64,000 nt of DNA from Capnocytophaga canimorsus (GTDB taxonomy: Bacteria; Bacteroidota; Bacteroidia; Flavobacteriales; Flavobacteriaceae). The notes beneath the pieces are model-generated. The model saw nothing but the letters and a program-made list of their open reading frames with translations. It did not search any database and was not told the origin of the DNA. The position numbers and the translations under genes were made by a program. The stretch is taken from contig NZ_CP022382.1 of assembly GCF_002302565.1 (NCBI RefSeq), positions 2,325,001 through 2,389,000 on the forward strand, written 5' to 3'. Positions 32,053 to 38,599 of this stretch are shown here, one piece after another (positions within the stretch are counted from its first letter, which is position 1; each line of letters starts with the position of its first letter).

Positions 32053-32613
32053 ATGAAAGTTTTGGTTATTGATAATTACGATAGCTTTGTTTTTAATTTA
32101 GTTCATTATTTGGAAGCATTGGGAGTTGAGGTAATCGTTAAAAGGAACGATGCTTTTACTTTCGATGAGGTAAATCAGTTTCATAAGATATTGTTGTCGC
32201 CAGGTCCTGGGATTCCTGATCAGGCTGGAAAAATGAAAAAACTCATTGAAATGTATGCTCCTATCAAAAGTATTTTTGGGGTTTGTTTGGGGCAACAGGC
32301 TATAGGAGAAGTTTTTGGCGGAACTCTTGAAAATTTAAAGCAGGTGTATCACGGCAAGGCAACTCCCATAACTATTGTGGCGAATGATTTTATCTATAAT
32401 GGTGTACCTAATGTTTTTGAGGTAGGACGTTACCACTCTTGGGTGGTGAAAAATCCGCTACCTCCTTCTTTAGAGGCAACTGCCGTAGATGAAAATGGAT
32501 ATATTATGTCGCTTAGGCATAAAATATATGACGTTCGTGGGGTACAATATCATCCTGAGTCGGTAATGACTTCTTTTGGTAAAACCATTCTTAAAAATTG
32601 GCTTGAAAATTAG
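32053..32613 (+). CDS. Glutamine amidotransferase, anthranilate/aminodeoxychorismate synthase component II
   Basis: The 186 residues are a class I glutaminase of the TrpG/PabA type, which supplies ammonia to a chorismate-using partner. The catalytic triad is complete: Cys78 in GVCLGQQAIGE, and His167 and Glu169 in GVQYHPESV. The oxyanion loop LSPGPG is also present. TrpG and PabA cannot be told apart by sequence, and no TrpE or PabB gene is adjacent. The next gene, a TrpC-like protein, starts 2 bases after its stop, so the two form a transcription unit. Confidence 0.9.
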   Translation: MKVLVIDNYDSFVFNLVHYLEALGVEVIVKRNDAFTFDEVNQFHKILLSPGPGIPDQAGKMKKLIEMYAPIKSIFGVCLGQQAIGEVFGGTLENLKQVYHGKATPITIVANDFIYNGVPNVFEVGRYHSWVVKNPLPPSLEATAVDENGYIMSLRHKIYDVRGVQYHPESVMTSFGKTILKNWLEN

Positions 32614-32615
32614 AT

Positions 32616-33404
32616 ATGACACTTTTAGACCGATTATTAGTCCATAAATTTGAAGAAGTAGCCTTGAAAAAAAGCCTAATACCGATGTCTGCTTTTGAGC
32701 AAAATCCTATATTCCAAACTTCAAATCGTTATTTTACAACATTTTTGAATAATAATTCTCACGGAATTGTTGGCGGATTTTATCGTAGGTCGCCTTGGCA
32801 AACGGAAATAAATCTGCATTTGAATGTTTTTGAGGTAGCTCAAGCCTATGAAAAAGGAGGATTTGCGGGAATTTCAATATGTACCGATACGAAGTATTTT
32901 GGAGGCTCACTTGATGATATGTTGTTGGTAAAAGCCTCTTGTCAACTTCCTTTACTTTGTAATGATTTTATAGTAGATGTATATCAAATTTATGAAAGTA
33001 AGGCTCACGCAGCTGATGCTGTAATGCTTATGGCTTCAATTTTAAAGTTGGATCAAATTCAGTATTTGACTCAAGAAGCTCATCGCATAGGCTTGGAAGT
33101 ATTTTTACAGATAAATGATATGCAAGATATTGAAAAATGCTTGTTATGTCCGTTTGATGTTTTGGTGGTAAGTAGTCGTTGTTTTTCTACTTCAGAAGTT
33201 GATTTTAAAAAATATAATTATTTTTACGACAAACTCTCTGAGGTTCCTTTAAAAATTGCAGAAGGTGGAATTTTTAACACAAAACAAATACTTGATTTAA
33301 AGCAGATTGGATATTCGGGTTGTGTAGTGGATTTTCCTTTTTTACAATCGGATGCCGTTTTTTATAGTGTGAATACTTTTATTAGCAACCTTTCATCAAA
33401 TTAA
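32616..33404 (+). CDS. TrpC-like (indole-3-glycerol-phosphate synthase fold) protein lacking catalytic residues
   Basis: The 262 residues align end to end with bacterial IGPS: MTLLDRLLVHKFEEVALKK, FGGSLDDM, LCNDFIVDVYQIYESKAHAADAVMLMA, EVFLQINDMQDIE and KIAEGGIF. The known IGPS catalytic residues are mostly changed. The EFKRRSP motif reads GFYRRSP, so Glu becomes Gly54 and Lys becomes Tyr56. The general-acid Lys of RKDF is Asn116. Glu of LLEL is Gln165, Asn of GINNRD is Ser186, and Ser of AESGI is Gly217; only Glu216 is kept. The frame is intact, so this is a folded but probably non-IGPS protein rather than simple decay. It is coupled to the glutaminase gene. Confidence 0.85.
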   Translation: MTLLDRLLVHKFEEVALKKSLIPMSAFEQNPIFQTSNRYFTTFLNNNSHGIVGGFYRRSPWQTEINLHLNVFEVAQAYEKGGFAGISICTDTKYFGGSLDDMLLVKASCQLPLLCNDFIVDVYQIYESKAHAADAVMLMASILKLDQIQYLTQEAHRIGLEVFLQINDMQDIEKCLLCPFDVLVVSSRCFSTSEVDFKKYNYFYDKLSEVPLKIAEGGIFNTKQILDLKQIGYSGCVVDFPFLQSDAVFYSVNTFISNLSSN

Positions 33405-33486
33405 AAATGATGAGATTTGATTTTTGATAATCAATACGTACCTTAGCCTTTCGTTACATTTCAAATCCTCACAAGTAAATTTAGTT

Positions 33487-35481
33487 ATGCAATTCTCTAT
33501 ACAATCTGATTTTCAACCTACTGGCGACCAACCTCAAGCCATTAAGCAACTCACACAAAGCATCGAAAAAGGGGAAAAATATCAGGTTTTACTCGGTGTG
33601 ACAGGCTCAGGGAAAACCTTTACTGTAGCTAATGTGGTGCAGAATGTACAACGCCCCACTCTTGTTTTGGCTCATAACAAAACCCTTGCTGCTCAATTAT
33701 ATAGCGAATTTAAAGCGTTTTTTCCGAACAATGCGGTGGAATATTTCGTATCGTATTACGATTATTACCAACCCGAAGCCTACATTCCCACTACGGGAAC
33801 GTACATCGAAAAAGACCTATCCATCAATGAAGAAATCGAAAAATTACGGCTTAGTGCTACTTCTTCTTTGCTTTCAGGACGACGTGATGTGTTGGTTGTG
33901 GCTTCCGTTTCGTGTCTGTATGGAATCGGAAATCCTATTGAATTTCAGAAGAATGTAATCACCATAAAGCGAGGCGAAGTACTTCCACGAACTAAATTTA
34001 TGCATCGTTTGGTGCAAAGTTTGTATGCCCGAACCACTGCCGATTTCATTCACGGAAATTTCCGAGTGAAAGGCGATGTAGTGGACGTTTACCCTGGCTA
34101 TTCCGATACGCCTTTCCGCATTCATTTCTTTGGAGATGAAATCGAAGAAATTGAGGTTTTCGACCCGCAAACTAACAAAGTATTAGAACGTTACGATAGT
34201 TTGAATATCTATCCTGCCAATATGTTCGTAACCTCGCCCGACGTGTTACAAAAAGCCATTTGGAACATTCAGCAAGATTTGACCAAACAAGTGGAATATT
34301 TTAAAGAAATCGGCAAGCATTTGGAAGCCAAACGATTGGAAGAACGCACCAATTTCGATTTGGAGATGATTCGCGAGCTAGGATATTGTTCGGGCATTGA
34401 AAATTATTCTCGTTATTTGGACGGAAGAGAGCCCGGTTCACGTCCGTTTTGCTTATTGGATTATTTTCCTGATGATTTTCTGATGGTTATCGACGAAAGT
34501 CACGTAACCATTCCGCAAGTACACGCAATGTATGGGGGCGACCGTAGTCGAAAGGAAAATTTGGTAGAATACGGCTTTCGTTTACCCGCTGCTTTAGATA
34601 ATCGTCCGCTGAAATTTGAGGAATTCGAAGCCCTTCAAAATCAGGTGATTTACGTAAGTGCAACACCTGCCGATTATGAACTTCAAAAAACGCAAGGGGT
34701 TTATGTTGAGCAAATTATTCGTCCGACAGGATTGCTCGACCCCGAAATCGAAATCCGTCCGAGTGAAAACCAAATTGACGATTTGGCAGAAGAAATTCAG
34801 CTCCGCGTAGAAAAGGACGAACGTGTTTTGGTAACCACTCTCACCAAACGAATGGCGGAAGAGCTTACTAAATATTTGACTAAAATTGGGGTGCGTTGCC
34901 GATACATTCACAGCGATGTGGATACCCTTGAACGAGTGGAAATTATGCAAGATTTACGCCGTGGATTGTTCGATGTTTTGGTGGGCGTAAACCTGCTTCG
35001 TGAAGGTTTGGATTTACCTGAAGTTTCGCTTGTTGCCATTTTAGATGCTGATAAAGAAGGCTTTTTGCGTTCTACACGTTCGCTGACCCAAACGGTGGGA
35101 CGAGCTGCCCGAAACGTAAACGGAAAAGCCATTATGTATGCCGATAAAATTACTCAAAGTATGCAAGTAACCATTGATGACACCAACTATCGGCGTGAAA
35201 AACAAATGAATTACAATTTCCGTAATGGAATCACTCCCAAGCCATTAAATAAAAAAATCGAAAATACGCTTAGCAAAAGTCCAATTACTGAATTTCATTA
35301 CGACCCCTCATTCAAAAAGGAAAAAGAGGTTCAAACAGAACTTCTTTCACAAAAGGAAGTTGAGAAAAAAATCCGAGAAACTCGCAAACTAATGGAAACT
35401 GCCGCCAAAGAACTAGACTTTGTCAAAGCTGCCCAATATCGTGACGAGATTAAAGTGTGGGAGAGTAAACTGGAAAAATGA
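33487..35481 (+). CDS. uvrB: Excinuclease ABC subunit B
   Basis: The 664 residues start at ATG 33487 (MQFSIQSDFQPTGDQPQAI); an upstream in-frame start at 33424 adds residues not seen in the family. Helicase motif I is GVTGSGKTFTVANV. The beta-hairpin region YYDYYQPEAYIP, DEXX box VIDESHVTIPQ, motif VI SLTQTVGRAARN and the C-terminal UVR motif (AAKELDFVKAAQYRDEI) are all present. It is the damage-recognition helicase of nucleotide excision repair and is complete in length. Confidence 0.96.
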   Translation: MQFSIQSDFQPTGDQPQAIKQLTQSIEKGEKYQVLLGVTGSGKTFTVANVVQNVQRPTLVLAHNKTLAAQLYSEFKAFFPNNAVEYFVSYYDYYQPEAYIPTTGTYIEKDLSINEEIEKLRLSATSSLLSGRRDVLVVASVSCLYGIGNPIEFQKNVITIKRGEVLPRTKFMHRLVQSLYARTTADFIHGNFRVKGDVVDVYPGYSDTPFRIHFFGDEIEEIEVFDPQTNKVLERYDSLNIYPANMFVTSPDVLQKAIWNIQQDLTKQVEYFKEIGKHLEAKRLEERTNFDLEMIRELGYCSGIENYSRYLDGREPGSRPFCLLDYFPDDFLMVIDESHVTIPQVHAMYGGDRSRKENLVEYGFRLPAALDNRPLKFEEFEALQNQVIYVSATPADYELQKTQGVYVEQIIRPTGLLDPEIEIRPSENQIDDLAEEIQLRVEKDERVLVTTLTKRMAEELTKYLTKIGVRCRYIHSDVDTLERVEIMQDLRRGLFDVLVGVNLLREGLDLPEVSLVAILDADKEGFLRSTRSLTQTVGRAARNVNGKAIMYADKITQSMQVTIDDTNYRREKQMNYNFRNGITPKPLNKKIENTLSKSPITEFHYDPSFKKEKEVQTELLSQKEVEKKIRETRKLMETAAKELDFVKAAQYRDEIKVWESKLEK

Positions 35482-35919: not shown

Positions 35920-36666
35920 TTAACAATTCCAAATTTCCCACGCTTTTTCGGCTTGTAAGCGTAACATTGCCTCGCCGTTGCAAATGGTTGCTTTTTTTTG
36001 TTTCCCTTTTTGCAAAAAAAGGGTTTTTTCAGGATTGTAAATCAAATCGTAAAGCAAATGTTGTGAAGTAATGTACTGATACGGAATGGGGGGGCAATCG
36101 GTAACGTTTGGAAATGTACCCAAAGGGGTACAGTTTATAATAATCGTATATTTGGATAAAAGTTCTGCTGATAAATCCGTGTAAGCATACTGCCCAATTT
36201 TTGGGGTACGAGATACAAATCGGTAGCTGATATACAATGTTTTTAGAGCATAAGCTACCGCTTTTGAAGCTCCTCCTGTACCCAGAATTAAGGCTTTGGT
36301 ATGGTGTGGTTTTAAAAAAGGCTTTATAGATTCGGAAAAACCATAGTAGTCGGTGTTGAATCCAATCCACCCCAAAGGAGTAACTTTTATGGTATTAACC
36401 GCTCCGATGATTTTTGCCGTTTCATTTAAAGCCGCCAATTTCGAGATGATGGCTTCTTTGTAAGGAATGGTAACATTCATTCCCTTTAAGTTGGGGTGCA
36501 TAGCAACCCGAGAAGGCAATTCTTCCAGAGTCATTAAATCAAAATTTACATACTCGGCGTTGACGCCTTCTTCTTGAAACTTCTTTGAGAAATAAGCTCT
36601 TGAAAATGAATAATCAATATTTTTACCTATCAGAGCGAATAAGTTTTTCTTGTCGTTTTTTTCCAT
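35920..36666 (-). CDS. aroE: Shikimate dehydrogenase
   Basis: The 248 residues carry out the NADP-dependent step from 3-dehydroshikimate to shikimate. The substrate-binding IGKNIDYSFSRAYF, the catalytic Lys in NVTIPYKEAI, Asp in NTDYYGF, the nucleotide fold GTGGASKAVAYAL, and INCTPLGTFPN are visible. The start overlaps the preceding DUF368 gene by 44 bases; no better in-frame start was seen. aroB of the same pathway lies about 3 kb away, divergent. Confidence 0.92.
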   Translation of the reverse strand: MEKNDKKNLFALIGKNIDYSFSRAYFSKKFQEEGVNAEYVNFDLMTLEELPSRVAMHPNLKGMNVTIPYKEAIISKLAALNETAKIIGAVNTIKVTPLGWIGFNTDYYGFSESIKPFLKPHHTKALILGTGGASKAVAYALKTLYISYRFVSRTPKIGQYAYTDLSAELLSKYTIIINCTPLGTFPNVTDCPPIPYQYITSQHLLYDLIYNPEKTLFLQKGKQKKATICNGEAMLRLQAEKAWEIWNC

Positions 36667-37657
36667 ACCATTCCAAACCTAAAACGATTAAAATTCCGAA
36701 AATGACGTAAATTAAGGCAATCCAAGTGGAACTATGAGAAATGTCGGGTAAAAATCGGCTGTAATTGGCTACGATTTGATTTCCTGCGGAATCAGTTAGA
36801 ACATTTCCCAAACTATCGGTGGCGTAAATGGTTTCTTTCCAAGGCCAAACCACTCCTAATGAGCCTGTAATAAAGCCTATTATAGTAGCAGTAGTGATGT
36901 CTTTGTAATGTTTTAAAATATAAGAAAGTAGATGCGAGAGTGTGACTAATCCGAACAAAGAACCGAAAGTAAAAACAGCAAGAATTTTTAGTAATCTGAT
37001 GCGTTCAGGGTTGTTAATGAAACTGGTATCCCCAGAAAATAGTTCACCTATGGTATAAGCCAAAGCATTTACTGAATCCACCAAAAGCAACACGTAATTT
37101 CCTAATAAAATCAGAATGAATGAGCCAGAAAGTCCAGGTAAGGTCATTCCTGAAATGCTGATAATACCACAGAAGAACACGAAAATTAGATTGCCGTTTT
37201 CCTTTGCGGGACTTAAAAAACTGATGGATACGCCTACTACTGCACCGATAATCATCGCGATGACCGTTTTGCGGTTCCAATTACTGAAATCCTTGGAAAT
37301 GTAATAAATAGAGCCAATAATCATTCCGAAAAAGGTAGCCCAAACGTACAATTCCCAGTGTTTCATAAAATAATCTAATAGGCGAGAAACACTGAAATAG
37401 CTAATAACCATACCCAAAATGAGTAATCCTAAAAAACGAAAATTGGTGTAGCGTAAAAAACTTTTGAATCTGCCATTGAAAAGCAACTTAAAGGCTTTTC
37501 CGTTGATTTTCTGTAAGGAATAGATAAACTCTTCATAAAATCCAGCAACGAAAGCAACAATTCCGCCTGAAACTCCAGGAACTTTATTGGCAGCTCCCAT
37601 AGCCAATCCTTTAATAATAAGGAGTATTTTATCAGTTAAAGTTCTTGTAGTTTCCAT
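36623..37657 (-). CDS. DUF368 (PopT-type) membrane protein, copy 1
   Basis: The 344 residues have about 8-10 membrane segments and the family signature GAANKVPGVSGGIVAFVAGFYEEFI near the start, repeated in the second half as GMTLPGLSGSFILILLGNY. DUF368 proteins have been linked to recycling of undecaprenyl phosphate across the inner membrane (PopT). It lies 6 bases after a second DUF368 gene on the same strand and overlaps aroE. Confidence 0.87.
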   Translation of the reverse strand: METTRTLTDKILLIIKGLAMGAANKVPGVSGGIVAFVAGFYEEFIYSLQKINGKAFKLLFNGRFKSFLRYTNFRFLGLLILGMVISYFSVSRLLDYFMKHWELYVWATFFGMIIGSIYYISKDFSNWNRKTVIAMIIGAVVGVSISFLSPAKENGNLIFVFFCGIISISGMTLPGLSGSFILILLGNYVLLLVDSVNALAYTIGELFSGDTSFINNPERIRLLKILAVFTFGSLFGLVTLSHLLSYILKHYKDITTATIIGFITGSLGVVWPWKETIYATDSLGNVLTDSAGNQIVANYSRFLPDISHSSTWIALIYVIFGILIVLGLEWYGKKRQEKLIRSDR

Positions 37658-37663
37658 AATTTT

Positions 37664-38599
37664 TTATTTTGTATTTGCTTTTTTTAAAGAAACGGCAAAG
37701 CGTTCTAACAAAAAGATGATGAAAAAACCAATAAGCGTCATCAGAATGACTTGTAAGGTTTTAGGATTTCCTTCGTAGGTGAAAGGCAATACATTTTTTT
37801 CTAAAAAAGGTTTAAGATTTCCGTGAGCATCTACATAAGTGGAAACAGTTTGTTTCCAAGGCCAAATTTTATTGAGCGACCCGATGATAAAGCCCATCAT
37901 TAAGGCAACAGTAGTATTTTTGTAGTGAGTAAACATCCATTTTAGTAAACGGGCAAAACTTAACAGCCCAACTATTGCTCCGCATCCTACGGTTGCTAAT
38001 ATTTTGAAATTCAATTCGCTGATTGCTGAAAGTATGGTGTGATAAGCCCCTAAAAGCACTAAAATAAAAGCTCCAGAGATTCCTGGTAAAATCATAGCAC
38101 AAATGGCTAAAGCTCCTGATAAGAATAAAAATAAATAGCCGTGTTCGCCTTGCCAAGGAGGTAATGAGGTAATCCAAAAGGCCAGCAGACAGCCAATGAG
38201 CAAGGCTGAAACCACTCCTAAATTCCATTTTTTAATGTCCTTACCTAAAAAATAGATACTTGCCAAAATCAATCCGAAGAAAAATGCCCACAATAATAAC
38301 GGATGATGTTCTAACAACCAACGAATTACTTTGGCTAATGAAAAAATACTAACACCAATGCCTAAAAACAGAGCGATTAAAAAATTACCATTGATTGTTT
38401 TCCAAAAGGAAGAGAAACCTTCGGTGCCGAGTGTTTTTAAAGCCTTTAGATTTATTTTATTTATAGAGGTTAATAATTCTTCGTAAATTCCTGAAATAAA
38501 GGCAATGGTACCCCCAGAAACTCCTGGAACTACGTCGGCTGCCCCAATGGCTAATCCTTTTAGTGTGATTAAAATATAGTCAAAAAACGACCTTTGCAT
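37664..38599 (-). CDS. DUF368 (PopT-type) membrane protein, copy 2
   Basis: The 311 residues are homologous throughout to the downstream copy: GAADVVPGVSGGTIAFISGIYEELL and AMILPGISGAFILVLLGAYHTIL match the two signature halves, as do the segments WPWKQTVSTYVDAHGNL and WPWKETIYATDSLGNV. The pair is a tandem duplication of a lipid-carrier transporter family. It starts 16 bases after the proline dehydrogenase stop and is part of the five-gene minus-strand operon. Confidence 0.87.
   Translation of the reverse strand: MQRSFFDYILITLKGLAIGAADVVPGVSGGTIAFISGIYEELLTSINKINLKALKTLGTEGFSSFWKTINGNFLIALFLGIGVSIFSLAKVIRWLLEHHPLLLWAFFFGLILASIYFLGKDIKKWNLGVVSALLIGCLLAFWITSLPPWQGEHGYLFLFLSGALAICAMILPGISGAFILVLLGAYHTILSAISELNFKILATVGCGAIVGLLSFARLLKWMFTHYKNTTVALMMGFIIGSLNKIWPWKQTVSTYVDAHGNLKPFLEKNVLPFTYEGNPKTLQVILMTLIGFFIIFLLERFAVSLKKANTK

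Follow-up and report, generated by a model that had tools for sequence, protein, structure and literature searches.

Indole-3-glycerol-phosphate synthase (IGPS; TrpC, PF00218) belongs to the tryptophan pathway. Yeast TRP3 is a fusion of TrpG and TrpC. In Cryptococcus, the trifunctional TRP3 protein likewise carries TrpG and TrpC in one chain (PMC4498599). The catalytic residues of IGPS have been described for two prokaryotic enzymes: in Sulfolobus numbering, Lys53, Lys110, Glu159 and Asn180 are reported as essential, with Lys53 and Glu51 as the proposed acid and base (PMC7681013); in Mycobacterium tuberculosis IGPS, alanine at each of five such positions leaves activity undetectable and Glu168Gln costs more than 9000-fold (PMC10591298). 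Tryptophan enzymes that have lost catalysis are represented by the plant TSB-like protein, a TrpB paralog which activates TrpA (PMC12727527). As to the genus considered here, a complete tryptophan pathway from chorismate (five genes) was found in 2015 to be exclusive to Capnocytophaga cynodegmi in a comparison with seven C. canimorsus genomes (PMC4447898).

Loss of the pathway in C. canimorsus is thus known already; what is new here is a putative pseudoenzyme. The loss of a pathway usually results in gene deletion or broken genes. We describe a TrpC homolog, designated TrpC', that is almost certainly dead as an IGPS and still encoded in an open frame. It goes unmentioned in the 2015 genome note (PMC4447898), and among the papers listed in literature searches there was none on a dead bacterial TrpC.

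The trpG-trpC' pair

Capnocytophaga canimorsus is a bacterium of the dog mouth. The genome studied is a single contig of 2.41 Mb, of which we analysed a stretch of 64,000 nucleotides (the window). An earlier note on this DNA had described two intact reading frames with no other trp gene nearby, and both points hold. The first gene, a trpG-type glutaminase gene read here as pabA (186 aa; 32053..32613, plus strand; TIGR00566), ends with TAG at 32611-32613; after a gap of two bases (32614..32615) follows the ATG of trpC', which encodes an IGPS homolog of 262 aa whose active site is lost (32616..33404, plus strand). Judging from the two-base gap, the genes are likely to be translationally coupled. 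On the 5′ side of trpG are two short ORFs that match no Pfam family, together with genes for a paired sensor kinase and response regulator. The next gene 3′ of trpC' is uvrB (33490..35481, plus strand), which we place outside the system. It may have its own promoter: a weak promoter-like match to a consensus of the Bacteroidetes type is found ahead of it (33416..33446, plus strand). This is one of 17 such matches in the window, where 11.3 are expected by chance and 17 were reached in 6 of 100 shuffles. Scans for sigma-70 promoters and terminators gave matches that were not above chance. Beyond uvrB, two tandem genes for PF04018 membrane proteins (344 and 311 aa) occupy positions 36623-38599 on the minus strand; the first of them shares bases with the end of a gene resembling that of shikimate dehydrogenase (35920-36666).

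The glutaminase is intact, as the earlier note had it. It scores 158.2 bits with Pfam GATase and 179.1 bits with TIGR00566 (cut-off 121.05), and Cys78, His167 and Glu169, which we take to be its catalytic residues, are invariant in all 23 aligned homologs. The genome contains four class-I GATases, and only that of the window is TrpG/PabA-like by length and context; the remaining three, open frames of 372, 556 and 512 codons, are read from their size as CarA, PyrG and GuaA. Two chorismate-binding proteins are present. The one that was typed fits PabB best, with 317.2 bits for TIGR00553, just under the cut-off of 328.4, and 275.6 bits for the TrpE model. FolP is present as well. As no second TrpG-type glutaminase is encoded here, while a PabB-like protein and FolP are, this protein is best read as PabA; it combines a class-I GATase domain and its Cys-His-Glu residues with a putative synthase partner in the genome, and for the same reason it needs no new role. 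A survey for trp and pab genes, which the earlier note had proposed, found this PabB-like protein, no match to TrpD, TrpF or TrpA in the whole genome, and nothing identifiable as TrpE, the typing having covered one of the two chorismate-binding proteins. On these grounds a glutaminase serving tryptophan synthesis is ruled out.

TrpC' is homologous to IGPS over its whole length. It matches Pfam IGPS at residues 4-244 with 146.8 bits (cut-off 27) and also matches 14 NCBIfam models, in every case below the curated cut-off; AlphaFold predicts a whole (beta-alpha)8 barrel with a mean pLDDT of 93. The active site is another matter. Residues 54, 56, 116, 165, 186, 216 and 217 read G, Y, N, Q, S, E and G, and the phosphate-loop pair at 239-240 is D-F, whereas 138 of 143 aligned sequences have E, K, K, E, N, E and S at the seven positions and G-E at 239-240. 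On the plus strand the codons concerned are those of Gly54-Phe55-Tyr56 (32775..32783; Glu at 54 and Lys at 56 in IGPS), Asn116 (32961..32963; catalytic Lys), Gln165 (33108..33110; catalytic Glu), Ser186 (33171..33173; Asn), the retained Glu216 with Gly217 (33261..33266; Ser at 217) and Asp239-Phe240 (33330..33335; Gly-Glu). Functions for Ser217 and the phosphate loop, like the mapping of residue numbers, are presumed or read from the alignment. The change at position 165 is the one that is so costly in M. tuberculosis IGPS, and among the five positions replaced there by alanine, Glu219 is the one retained in TrpC', as Glu216 (PMC10591298).

The 143 proteins comprise that of the window, P0001-P0020, P0141-P0258 and four loci from the genus, two of which apparently duplicate P0141 and P0142; they are search matches rather than a survey of the family (all 20 from one search, and the best 120 of 7,999 scored in another). 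The five exceptions are the window protein, P0001, P0002, P0156 and P0200. P0001, which is 98% identical to TrpC', is labelled Capnocytophaga canimorsus and stands for a cluster of 27 member sequences, reads exactly as the window does (G-Y-N-Q-S-E-G and D-F). The sister protein P0002 retains Glu54, and the losses common to all three members of this clade affect five of the seven catalytic positions; Tyr56, Asn116, Gln165, Ser186, Gly217, Asp239 and Phe240 are common to all three. P0200 has V at position 240. P0156, encoded on an 11,668-base contig of a public assembly, is a Capnocytophaga-like TrpC and is 80.5% identical to the TrpC of genome G014; it has G at both 216 and 217 instead of Glu-Ser, which may point to an earlier and second instance of active-site loss, seen in this one protein only.

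TrpC' aligns without a gap over 262 residues to three Capnocytophaga TrpC proteins having intact residues, which leaves no room for catalytic residues displaced along the chain. The earlier note had named catalytic residues at shifted positions as one finding that would overturn it; these are ruled out, and its residue numbering and its claim that six of the seven catalytic residues have been lost both stand. TrpC' has the whole-domain homology and predicted barrel of an IGPS without the full set of catalytic residues or the accompanying pathway genes. An ordinary IGPS is ruled out by the replacements in the alignments, and we infer that TrpC' has no other catalysis. Its public annotation as indole-3-glycerol-phosphate synthase, like its whole-length homology, would suit a working IGPS with relocated residues, but we give this next to no credence in view of the gapless alignment, the six replacements, the lost phosphate loop and the failure to find TrpD or TrpF, which would provide substrate, or TrpA.

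Tryptophan genes in the genus and the origin of the pair

TrpC' is the only IGPS homolog in the whole genome. Nine of 20 genomes of the genus, this one not among them, carry all of TrpA, TrpD and TrpF, and the other eleven none of the three; a TrpC homolog occurs in ten, namely those nine and this genome. In four of the 20 (G002, G005, G016 and G019) a TrpG-type glutaminase was found and a TrpC homolog was not; TrpC is therefore no general requirement of the glutaminase.

TrpB is more widespread (17 of the 20). In this genome its gene stands alone, away from the pair (L150:7492-8700; G000:C1:520491-521699), and the product is about 80-84% identical to the copies in G002, G004, G016 and G019 and 49-50% identical to three operon TrpB proteins. 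Since TrpA was not found, the standalone TrpB could serve in the use of imported indole. With a TrpB present and no TrpA found, one may ask if TrpC' has become a substitute for TrpA, a barrel partner that aids TrpB in using indole; in plants, a dead TrpB paralog drives TrpA (PMC12727527). We consider this very improbable, as trpC' and trpB are far apart and the same type of TrpB (about 80-82% identical) is present in G002, G016 and G019, where no TrpC homolog was found; the standalone TrpB accordingly does not need TrpC'.

In two relatives the orthologous trpC sits in an operon: G017 has trpG-trpD-trpC-trpF-trpB on one contig, and G014 has trpD-trpC-trpF-trpB on one contig, its trpG being found at a different contig's end; the TrpC of both has a full active site. 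In a tree of TrpC the TrpC' clade (support 1.0) groups with these two proteins (0.86 for the group of ten). The stem of the clade measures 1.62 in this tree and 1.43 in a smaller one, while in the smaller tree the tips of the three Capnocytophaga TrpC proteins with intact active sites measure 0.15, 0.22 and 0.46; by these branch lengths TrpC' has evolved several-fold faster than intact TrpC. The TrpG of the window has a branch of 0.15 plus a stem of 0.15 shared with P0022, about as long as the branches of G016 (0.25) and G002 (0.22).

In G005, G016 and G019 the lone trpG lies behind a gene for a family-2 glycosyltransferase, as it does in G014, and in G002 behind an HD-domain gene. Neither trpG nor trpC is found within about 1.5 kb on either side of uvrB in any of the 19 other genomes of the genus. 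From this, and from the absence of trpD between the two genes, it follows that the pair was brought together at another site in this lineage; deletion combined with relocation could account for this, and so could transfer from a relative. To judge from sequence and gene order, the pair is a rearranged remnant of a trp operon. A scan of contigs with TrpC' gave 39 stretches that matched a pattern, none of them a relative; of the 80 loci kept in a scan with TrpG, only L069, from a Capnocytophaga MAG, is close (73%), the next being at most 59% identical.

Two other genomes deserve mention. In G004 (L046:6755-13132; G004:C36) UvrB is 98% identical to that of this genome and the trp operon is very different, with TrpG 55% and TrpC 31% identical to the window proteins; this operon was possibly gained by transfer or is an old alternative form. 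In G001 a trpC that encodes an intact active site stands alone (L047:8372-9202; G001:C13), apart from the other trp genes of that genome and preceding a gene that, named by eye, resembles serS.

Selection on TrpC'

The long stem of the TrpC' clade (1.43-1.62 against 0.15-0.46 for the intact tips) is what one would see in a decaying remnant, in which trpC has drifted since the pathway was lost and the frame is open by chance or to spare the expression of neighbours, for example uvrB. The low GC3 of trpC' (0.24) also fits, as do pocket residues that are still changing, since near relatives disagree at positions 54, 187 and 188. Conservation in at least 97% of sequences applies to 98 positions, and 46 of these are altered in one or more of the three clade members. 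The alterations affect 12 of the 18 positions in the pocket and 34 of the 80 outside it, an excess in the pocket that falls short of significance (P 0.07). The distant P0019 and P0020 were excluded from these conservation counts and from those of the core given below.

Decay agrees poorly with the pattern of replacements. TrpC' is 40% and 37% identical to the products of the G014 and G017 trpC genes, and neither a stop nor a gap interrupts its 262 codons; when either gene was allowed to drift neutrally to 70, 60 or 50% identity, a stop-free frame remained in 0-1.5% of runs (200 runs per setting, no indels simulated). Between TrpC' and P0002 there are 35 differences in 259 residues and no gap. 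Neutral simulation to 35 differences, in three settings of 1000 runs each, left 4.6-8.2% of runs free of stops and gave replacements as conservative as those observed in 0.3-0.9% (P 0.003-0.009), the mean BLOSUM62 score being 0.31 observed and -0.43 to -0.35 under neutrality; the missing stops in this comparison are thus only mildly improbable under drift. The hydrophobic core is preserved as well: when a core column is defined as one hydrophobic in at least 95% of the other TrpC proteins (138 sequences), there are 79, of which 75 are hydrophobic in all three clade members. Core positions replaced relative to G014 are still hydrophobic in 42 of 46 cases, where single neutral steps would give 58% (P 5e-7), and those replaced relative to G017 in 39 of 43 (P 3e-6). 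The long-drift and core results may derive partly from the time before catalysis was lost; the comparison with P0002 is free of such time if the loss preceded the split from P0002.

The dN/dS check suggested in the earlier note was run between species. Codon models gave an omega of 0.088 on the window branch and 0.008 elsewhere, a difference that is not significant (2dlnL 1.8) with synonymous sites saturated; omega = 1 on the window branch is rejected (2dlnL 7.2), a result of little weight given the same saturation.

Taken from these comparisons, selection preserving the fold of TrpC' is likely, in line with the intact frame and scaffold motifs of the earlier note and with its suggestion of selection. 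A plain pseudogene is unlikely, because there is no stop or gap at about 40% identity, the hydrophobic core is kept and the differences from P0002 are conservative. A need for an open frame would not keep a core hydrophobic, and uvrB, as noted, may have a promoter of its own. We therefore hold a decaying remnant to be rather unlikely. TIM barrels are often re-used. A barrel rebuilt for another reaction, with Tyr56, Asn116, Gln165 and Asp239 as new pocket residues, would agree with the whole predicted barrel and with the seven replacements common to the three clade members; it is nevertheless improbable, for near relatives are not alike at positions 54, 187 and 188, which adjoin the pocket, the replacements are mostly poor acids or bases, and the phosphate loop is lost.

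Role of TrpC' and comparison with known systems

The reading we prefer, with a probability of roughly 0.6, is that TrpC' is a pseudoenzyme kept for its fold, left with PabA from the trp operon and having a role other than that of an IGPS. Tryptophan synthesis would have been lost, leaving the pair behind; the glutaminase would have survived by also serving as PabA, supplying ammonia to PabB for folate synthesis. TrpC' would have lost IGPS catalysis and then changed fast, yet stayed encoded. It is still predicted to be a full (beta-alpha)8 barrel, apparently under purifying selection on frame and core, which argues for a pseudoenzyme with a non-IGPS role; an enzyme homolog that lacks catalytic residues and bears the signs of purifying selection in comparisons between species is what the term describes.

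The role of TrpC' is probably binding. A partner made together with PabA is the simplest guess by position, and PabA or the PabA-PabB complex would be the most likely one, as TrpC' is translated right behind PabA; the fungal fusions show that a single chain can hold both TrpG and TrpC (PMC4498599). This guess, drawn from gene order, is a doubtful one: a trp operon remnant would leave trpG and trpC' adjacent anyway. More specific, and less probable still, is the idea that aminodeoxychorismate synthase has gained TrpC' as a non-catalytic third subunit, which would be co-translated with PabA and would hold or regulate PabA-PabB; if true, a dead tryptophan enzyme would have been re-used in folate synthesis. 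Any action of TrpC' at PabA would be a local addition rather than a general need, since four genomes of the genus have TrpG with no TrpC homolog found. The earlier note had proposed a new role outside tryptophan synthesis, for example in binding or regulating the glutaminase. The first part is favoured by the loss of IGPS function and of the pathway and by the signs of purifying selection, whereas a link to the glutaminase is no more than suggested by adjacency.

Within one genus there is thus a trp operon, a trpG standing alone in genomes where a TrpC homolog was not found, and a trpG with a dead enzyme that is apparently kept, and these states make Capnocytophaga a small natural experiment on how pseudoenzymes start. 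Annotation of TrpC' as an indole-3-glycerol-phosphate synthase would assign to C. canimorsus, in error, a step of tryptophan synthesis.

Compared with IGPS proper, TrpC' is homologous throughout, aligns without gaps to Capnocytophaga TrpC and has the predicted barrel, but six of the seven catalytic residues and the Gly-Glu pair are replaced and TrpD, TrpF and TrpA were not found. The window glutaminase is an amphibolic TrpG/PabA protein, with its catalytic residues present and no second one in the genome; it differs from others in having a dead TrpC directly 3′ of its gene instead of trpD. Fungal TrpG-TrpC fusions resemble the pair in that TrpG and TrpC are made together, but they are fused and catalytically working, whereas the window encodes separate proteins with a dead TrpC. 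The plant TSB-like protein shares with TrpC' the loss of catalysis in a tryptophan-pathway enzyme that is kept all the same; it differs in that TSB-like activates TrpA, while the role of TrpC' is a predicted one and no working copy lies beside it. By analogy, TSB-like would be a closer parallel than the fungal fusions for how a dead tryptophan enzyme is kept.
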